Shown here one piece after another: positions 54,796-64,000 of a stretch of 64,000 nt of DNA. The notes under the pieces were generated by a model that ran no database searches, had not been told where the DNA came from, and was given only the letters and a program-made list of their open reading frames with translations. Each line of letters starts with the position of its first letter. Within the stretch, counting starts at the first letter, position 1. The stretch is from Bacteroidota bacterium (GTDB lineage Bacteria; Bacteroidota; Ignavibacteria; SZUA-365): positions 1 through 64,000 of the forward strand of contig JACZJN010000071.1 in assembly GCA_014860565.1 (NCBI GenBank), given 5' to 3'. The position numbers and the translations under genes were made by a program.

Positions 54796-54825
54796 TGTAG
54801 GGGCGCAGCATGCTGCGCCCCTACA
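54796..54825. repeat. Perfect 30-bp palindrome, repeat family B
   Basis: TGTAGGGGCGCAGCA is followed at once by its exact reverse complement. It lies between two convergent genes and could form a strong hairpin ending either transcript. The same 30 bases occur at 63031-63060 and 63402-63431. Confidence 0.95.
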
Positions 54826-63001: not shown

Positions 63002-63032
63002 GATATTGGGATATTGGGATATTGGGATATTG
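63002..63032. repeat. Short tandem repeat (GATATTGG, almost four units)
   Basis: The 8-base unit GATATTGG occurs three times and is followed by a partial fourth (GATATTG). It lies directly before the family B palindrome at 63031. Confidence 0.85.
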
Positions 63033-63135: not shown

Positions 63136-63684
63136 ATGCCTCGACATCGTCGTCAATCAATGCGTTTGCGTGGATTCGATCAATCCCTTCCGTTCATGTG
63201 CTTCATCACCATTCACACCCATGACAATCAACATCTCTTCGGTGCAGTTACAGATGCTGCGGTGATACATAGTGAGCTCGGTGTCATTGCGGTAAAATGC
63301 TGGCAGGAAATTCCGAGACACTTTCCCAACGTCAAACTCGATGAAATGGTCGTTATGCCGAACCATGTCCATGGGATATTGCACATCGCTCCATCGAAGA
63401 TTGTAGGGGCGCAGCATGCTGCGCCCCTACAAAGGCGTGGGGCGAACCTGACTCCCGGTACGATGGGTGTCATCGTGCGGTCCTATAAATCCGAAGTGAC
63501 ACGACAGGCACGCCAATGTCTGAACTCTCTGTCGGCGGTAATCTGGCAGCACAATTATCATGATCGCATCATCCGAGATGATCGCGCGTTATTCCACATG
63601 CGAAATTACATCCGATCGAATCCGGAACGGTGGGGTGCGTGCGGGACGGATGCTTCAGGATACACCACCCCCGACAGCCAGTAA
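63136..63684 (+). CDS. REP-associated tyrosine transposase (RAYT) with a palindrome in its reading frame
   Basis: This 182-residue protein belongs to the Y1 HUH transposase family associated with REP palindromes. His77 and His79 in MPNHVHGI form the HUH motif, and Tyr141 in WQHNYHDRIIRD is the nucleophile, as usual for single-tyrosine IS200/IS605-type enzymes that cut and join single-stranded DNA hairpins. Between them, residues 90-99 (VGAQHAAPLQ) are encoded by the 30-bp family B palindrome at 63402-63431, so the transposase appears to have received a copy of its likely substrate. The ATG has GGGAG seven bases upstream. Catalytic residues remain intact, so it could be active. Confidence 0.9.
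   Translation: MPRHRRQSMRLRGFDQSLPFMCFITIHTHDNQHLFGAVTDAAVIHSELGVIAVKCWQEIPRHFPNVKLDEMVVMPNHVHGILHIAPSKIVGAQHAAPLQRRGANLTPGTMGVIVRSYKSEVTRQARQCLNSLSAVIWQHNYHDRIIRDDRALFHMRNYIRSNPERWGACGTDASGYTTPDSQ
63402..63431. repeat. Perfect 30-bp palindrome, repeat family B, inside the RAYT gene
   Basis: The 30-base palindrome is identical to those at 54796 and 63031 and keeps the reading frame because its length is divisible by three. In the RAYT frame it is read as GTA-GGG-GCG-CAG-CAT and so on, without a stop codon. Confidence 0.95.
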
Positions 63685-64000
63685 ATGACTCCTGCAGCCG
63701 CGATACCGAGAATGACGTCGATGGCGTAATGCGCCTGGATGTACACCGTCGCGGCGATGATGCCGAGGCCGGGAAGGAGGAAGAGCCAGAAGTACCGCCG
63801 TTGAAAGCGGAACGCGAAGACGAGGGTGAGCAGCGTCACGCCGGTGTGCATGGAGGGAACGCAGTCGCGTACGGCGGGATTGAGATTGGCGGCAAGAAAG
63901 GCCTGCACCCACGCGGTGATAGGCAGCAAGCCGTGCAGCACCGGAAGCTGATCGGCCATCCAGCGGCTGGGTCCGAGCGCCGGGAAGAGGGCGTAAGTAA
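63606..64000 (-). CDS. PAP2-like membrane phosphatase, 5' end cut by window edge
   Basis: The frame stays open to the right edge, and at least 131 residues are visible. CVPSMHTG (the C-P-S-x-H signature) and QAHYAIDVILG (His and Asp of the third PAP2 motif) mark it as a PAP2-superfamily enzyme of the type that dephosphorylates or transfers lipid phosphates, similar to AUR1-like proteins. At least three membrane segments are visible. Its last 26 codons overlap the 3' end of the convergent RAYT gene, so its C-terminal residues (YPEASVPHAPHRSG) may be newly acquired at an insertion junction. Confidence 0.78.
   Translation of the reverse strand, partial: TYALFPALGPSRWMADQLPVLHGLLPITAWVQAFLAANLNPAVRDCVPSMHTGVTLLTLVFAFRFQRRYFWLFLLPGLGIIAATVYIQAHYAIDVILGIAAAGVIYWLSGVVYPEASVPHAPHRSGFDRM

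Follow-up and report, generated by a model that had tools for sequence, protein, structure and literature searches.

A subclass 2.4-like RAYT gene carrying a double-foot REP in frame between its HUH motif and catalytic tyrosine

The RAYT (TnpAREP) gene near the end of the window, the 64,000-nucleotide stretch of DNA analysed here, contains within its coding sequence a 30-bp palindrome that bears a GTAG foot on both strands. We consider it probable that this RAYT belongs to subclass 2.4 or group 4 of Bertels et al. and carries its own cognate double-foot REP as a tolerated self-insertion. The arrangement itself was published in 2018 (PMC6006769), and the window holds a further example of it, with quantitative support for cognate matching. 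The counts made here reveal that insertion into the loop is very frequent among homologues, tied to one floppy loop and matched to the palindromes beside the same gene. A single sequence would presumably serve an enzyme as its substrate and also form part of the gene encoding it.

The RAYT gene and its palindrome

The original prediction, made from the window alone, placed an in-frame palindrome of ten codons between the HUH motif and the catalytic tyrosine of a RAYT gene, with identical 30-bp copies at 63031 and 54796, and all of these elements were recovered (Table 1). The ORF is intact and encodes 182 amino acids, with the HUH motif at H77/H79, a WQ motif and the catalytic Tyr158 in YIRSNP. 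In the alignment of homologues, H77, H79, Y158 (in the YIxxNP motif) and N162 are among the invariant residues.

Table 1. Positions of the RAYT gene, the REP copies and neighbouring features in the window
Feature	Position	Strand	Basis or remark
RAYT / TnpAREP gene, subclass 2.4-like	63136..63684	+	NF047646 match, invariant residues of the alignment, structure match 4ER8
In-frame 30-bp double-foot GTAG palindrome (REP) in RAYT	63402..63431		codes residues 90-99, VGAQHAAPLQ
Identical REP copy, 75 bp 5' of the RAYT start codon	63031..63060		sequence identity
Identical REP copy between two convergent ORFs	54796..54825		8.2 kb upstream of the 63031 copy
Short tandem repeat of GGGATATT	63003..63032		immediately before the upstream REP copy
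PAP2-family phosphatase gene	63606..63998	-	convergent with RAYT; 3' end overlaps the last codons of RAYT

The assignment as a RAYT, also part of the original prediction, is supported by both profile and structure. The NCBIfam RAYT model NF047646 matched the window protein with an E-value of 6.5e-13 and 48.8 bits, below the curated cut-off of 80 bits, which is a naming rule and not a biological definition. This cut-off was passed by none of the proteins of the window's genome and in one of six matching control genomes, and the model is therefore narrow. The Pfam Y1_Tnp match was weak, and a profile built from the window RAYT and eight homologues led to E. coli TnpAREP (4ER8). The same entry, the E. 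coli RAYT-REP complex, was the top structural match in the PDB (E 7.6e-7) for the AlphaFold2 model of the window RAYT (pLDDT 77.7, pTM 0.75). Judged from the predicted structure, the product is a RAYT with a Y1 transposase fold.

The palindrome, TGTAGGGGCGCAGCATGCTGCGCCCCTACA, remains perfect to 32 bp (63401-63432) when the outer T/A pair is included, and its double-foot form (GTAG ... CTAC) reads GTAGGGGCGCAGCATGCTGCGCCCCTAC. The 28-bp core did not arise by chance in any of 100 shuffles of the window. No REP was found downstream of the RAYT gene, the flanking copy being upstream only. The encoded peptide lies between H77/H79 and Y158. In the AlphaFold2 model, residues 90-102 have pLDDT values below 50 and sit between the strand of residues 77-84 and the helix of residues 110-129; the HUH-Tyr loop is thus predicted to be disordered, and the ten added residues are therefore plausibly harmless.

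The arrangement agrees with that described for TnpAREP subclass 2.4, which corresponds to group 4 of Bertels et al. in Table 1 of Quentin et al. 2018 (PMC6006769). That article describes the subclass by NH[IFV]H, WQ and YIxNNP-type motifs, by "double-foot" REPs on the flanks of the gene and by REPs that lie in frame between HuH and Y; the insertion that separates beta3 from alphaC is variable, and the subclass is spread across Bacteroidetes and other phyla. REPs within the gene are reported there as unique to this subclass. NHVH and WQ are exact in the window RAYT, whereas in YIRSNP the first N is replaced by S, and the flanking REP found is a single one, upstream. On the portion of the description compared, the window case fits each tested part, one residue of the Y motif aside. 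The insert-flank match, the frame use and the frequency, all counted here, were not seen in the same portion of the article (PMC6006769). E. coli TnpAREP (4ER8, subclass 2.2) shares the fold, the motifs and a GTAG-tagged hairpin substrate, but the REP of E. coli is bulged and has a single GTAG foot, whereas the window REP has GTAG feet at both ends. Literature searches with the loop peptides gave no match, and among the papers listed for the DNA words there were only unrelated ones.

The sequence facts, the position and frame of the insert, its match to the flanks and the predicted disorder of the loop were established directly; the mechanism that we propose on this basis is as follows. The REP would move as single-stranded hairpin DNA that is cut and rejoined by the RAYT, and the window palindrome would itself be cut and mobilised by the RAYT of the window. 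Copying of the cognate REP by the RAYT would favour sites in or around the RAYT gene itself: the transposase would meet the DNA around its own gene first, making that gene a frequent target, so that the insertion would be self-targeted and action near the own gene would cause the enrichment described below. A ten-codon unit keeps the reading frame open in two phases out of three (the remaining one reads the TAG of GTAG), and the loop that follows the HUH strand and precedes the next helix would tolerate it. The conserved A after CTAC gives CA, where the cut site may lie; in biochemical work on other groups, GTAG-guided cutting occurs at CT or CA (PMC8266576).

Hairpins in the loop of RAYT homologues

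A whole-protein search detected RAYT homologues in 80 of 149 relatives of the window's genome, most of them from its class. Most of the 120 analysable genes came from this search and a few from a peptide-seeded search; the class-wide counts include at most eight peptide-seeded loci. Perfect arms of at least 9 bp were present in 71 of 120 HUH-Tyr loops, as compared to one N-terminal and two C-terminal parts. When 12-bp arms with mismatches were allowed, 60 of 117 loops reached 11 or 12 pairs; by the same criterion none of 117 equally long upstream stretches did so, and codon shuffling predicts 0.1 such hairpins among the 117 homologues, most of which are from the window's class. Many relatives carry 28-29-bp palindromes of the form GTAGRGRC-core-GYCYCTAC, in which the core differs.

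The inserts are read in two frames, 43 as GTA GGG and 11 in the other open frame, with none in the TAG frame. Their use of two frames and their varying position argue for several independent insertions, and some loops (L080, L138 and L149) contain more than one copy. Frame, position and multiple copies per loop together show repeated insertion into the loop. Separately, the loops of L106, L149 and L151 are swollen to 105-185 residues by tandem repeats, some of which derive from palindrome-like units.

The hairpin could alternatively be a maintained working part of the gene, either bound by the RAYT in its own gene or transcript to limit expression or serving as an in-gene substrate, with a core that tracks the specificity of the protein. 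Its presence in the same loop of about half of the homologues, its near-bimodal quality, mostly either near-perfect or at background, and the strong RNA fold (-45 kcal/mol, z -6.2, for the palindrome region of the window) all speak for such a role. However, the other half of the homologues, whole clades among them, lack a loop hairpin (in a tree of the sequences fetched here alone, which is poorly resolved), and both the two reading frames and the variable position of the inserts argue against it. Selection at the RNA level would further be expected to leave a strand asymmetry in the hairpin mismatches, that is, a preference for G-U on the sense strand, but no clear one was found (GT 19, AC 13). 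We therefore regard a maintained role as unlikely, with further evidence on both sides coming from the cores considered below.

Identical palindromes also occur in the same loop of distant RAYTs, about 45% identical, from Chloroflexi and Gemmatimonadetes, namely in L019 (Anaerolineales), L020 (Anaerolineae), L021 (Gemmatimonadetes) and the truncated L026 (Dehalococcoidia). Since AQHAAPLQ was among the seeds of the search that gave L019-L026, such cases are over-represented, and the search itself accounts in part for the finding of the identical palindrome in other phyla. The recurrence of the same ten residues in distant RAYTs might suggest conservation of VGAQHAAPLQ as a protein motif, with codon use giving rise to the DNA palindrome incidentally. 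Yet the DNA palindrome is identical wherever the full peptide is seen, as in L019, L020 and L021, so that the distant homologues with the peptide and no palindrome, by which the original prediction would have fallen, did not appear. Moreover, relatives encode quite different peptides that are still palindromic at the DNA level, and this persistence of the palindrome under a changing peptide refutes the reading, to which we give almost no credence. Among these different peptides, the insert VGAGFKPA that the original prediction mentioned for other RAYTs does exist: the same loop of L053 contains GTCGGGGCGGGTTTCAAACCCGCCCCGAC, translated as VGAGFKPAPT.

In the sister species SZUA-365, of the same genus (L029/L153), what is left of the RAYT between the same two neighbours is a C-terminal remnant, a deletion of about 594 bp having taken the upstream REP and most of the gene. 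The remnant at the shared site shows that the gene itself, though not necessarily its palindrome, was there in the common ancestor.

Cores, flanking palindromes and genome-wide copies

The core of the palindrome varies by lineage and tends to match the palindromes that flank the same gene. The central 18 bases of the inserts scored a mean of 13.0 against the flanks of their own gene and 10.8 against those of other genes, and the best of 20,000 permutations reached 11.4, below the observed own-flank value. All five double-foot palindromes of G039 are within or close to RAYT genes. Of the ten in G097, five are within such genes, and no RAYT was found at the other five. In seven genomes picked for carrying palindrome-bearing RAYTs (G007, G025, G032, G039, G097, G124 and G144), 15 of 61 perfect double-foot palindromes fall within RAYT genes, and these genes account for about 0.05% of the sequence in those genomes.

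Several cores, on the other hand, run counter to the tolerated self-insertion that we favour, as they are private to the RAYT gene: those of L032, L047, L048, L067 and L110 were not found as a perfect double-foot palindrome elsewhere in their own genome. A pool of abundant REPs feeding the insertions therefore does not fit every case. Apart from this, GTAGAGACGGGATATATCCCGTCTCTAC occurs at least seven times in G032 outside the RAYTs found there, and the same core is inside a RAYT of G134 (L108).

Private cores favour a maintained hairpin, as do the changes within its arms. In 30 related RAYT pairs we counted 66 two-sided changes that keep the pairing against 26 one-sided changes, in a comparison of hairpins with at least 10 of 12 pairs only, which favours the two-sided count and weakens the excess as an argument. 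The excess hints at upkeep of the hairpin, counter to self-insertion, but the pattern suits repeated replacement of the insert as well as upkeep of its pairing. Near-perfect pairing that persists while the core changes with the transposase and the flanking REPs may mean that the subclass 2.4 hairpin is no scar but is kept up by the element as an inbuilt substrate or a site of self-control within the coding sequence; we think this improbable. The numbers (one loop, own-flank match, two of three frames and RAYT-private cores) make tolerated self-insertion versus maintained function directly testable.

Throughout the window's genome, the 28-bp core was found at 42 places with at most three mismatches, 26 of them exact, and a reversed-core control gave no matches. 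The palindrome is a dispersed REP carrying a GTAG foot at each end. Its many copies support the original prediction, which few genomic copies would have contradicted. The 42 copies share a preceding T and a following A, but farther out their flanks show no relation, except in one tandem pair. The dispersed unit is therefore 30 bp, exactly ten codons, and the sequences indicate that the REP spread as a short unit and not via larger duplications.

Of these copies, 33 are intergenic with respect to the predicted ORFs; 14 of those have convergent neighbours and none has divergent ones, a placement like that of known REPs. The remaining nine are the copy within RAYT plus eight found at, or close to, where predicted ORFs start; the palindrome contains the start of four of these ORFs, and the others begin 4 to 42 bp away from it. 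ORFs were predicted by a simple codon score and not from annotation, and the wrong strand was called at the RAYT; ORF starts in or just ahead of the palindrome were counted as false starts. The count of copies inside genes suggested by the original prediction thus leaves, by these codon-score ORFs, a single copy among the 42 that lies deep within a gene, the one in RAYT.

This bears on whether the RAYT gene is merely one of many genes that catch REPs, with nothing special about it beyond its tolerant loop. Short palindromes in frame in coding sequences are known as the Rickettsia palindromic elements (RPE) and other intragenic GTAG/CGTC REPs, in Rickettsia and other genomes (PMC3733652). Those elements, however, are in unrelated host genes, whereas the host gene in the window is the presumed transposase itself, and RPE-type (CGTC) repeats have no associated transposase gene (PMC3733652). 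Both the solitary position of the RAYT copy and the share of palindromes inside RAYT genes in the seven selected genomes stand against the RAYT being an ordinary host, and we judge this very improbable.

The tandem pair (L010, G000:C109:6987-7123) is a BIME-like tandem duplication, with 109 bp between its two REP copies and nearly the same flanks on each.
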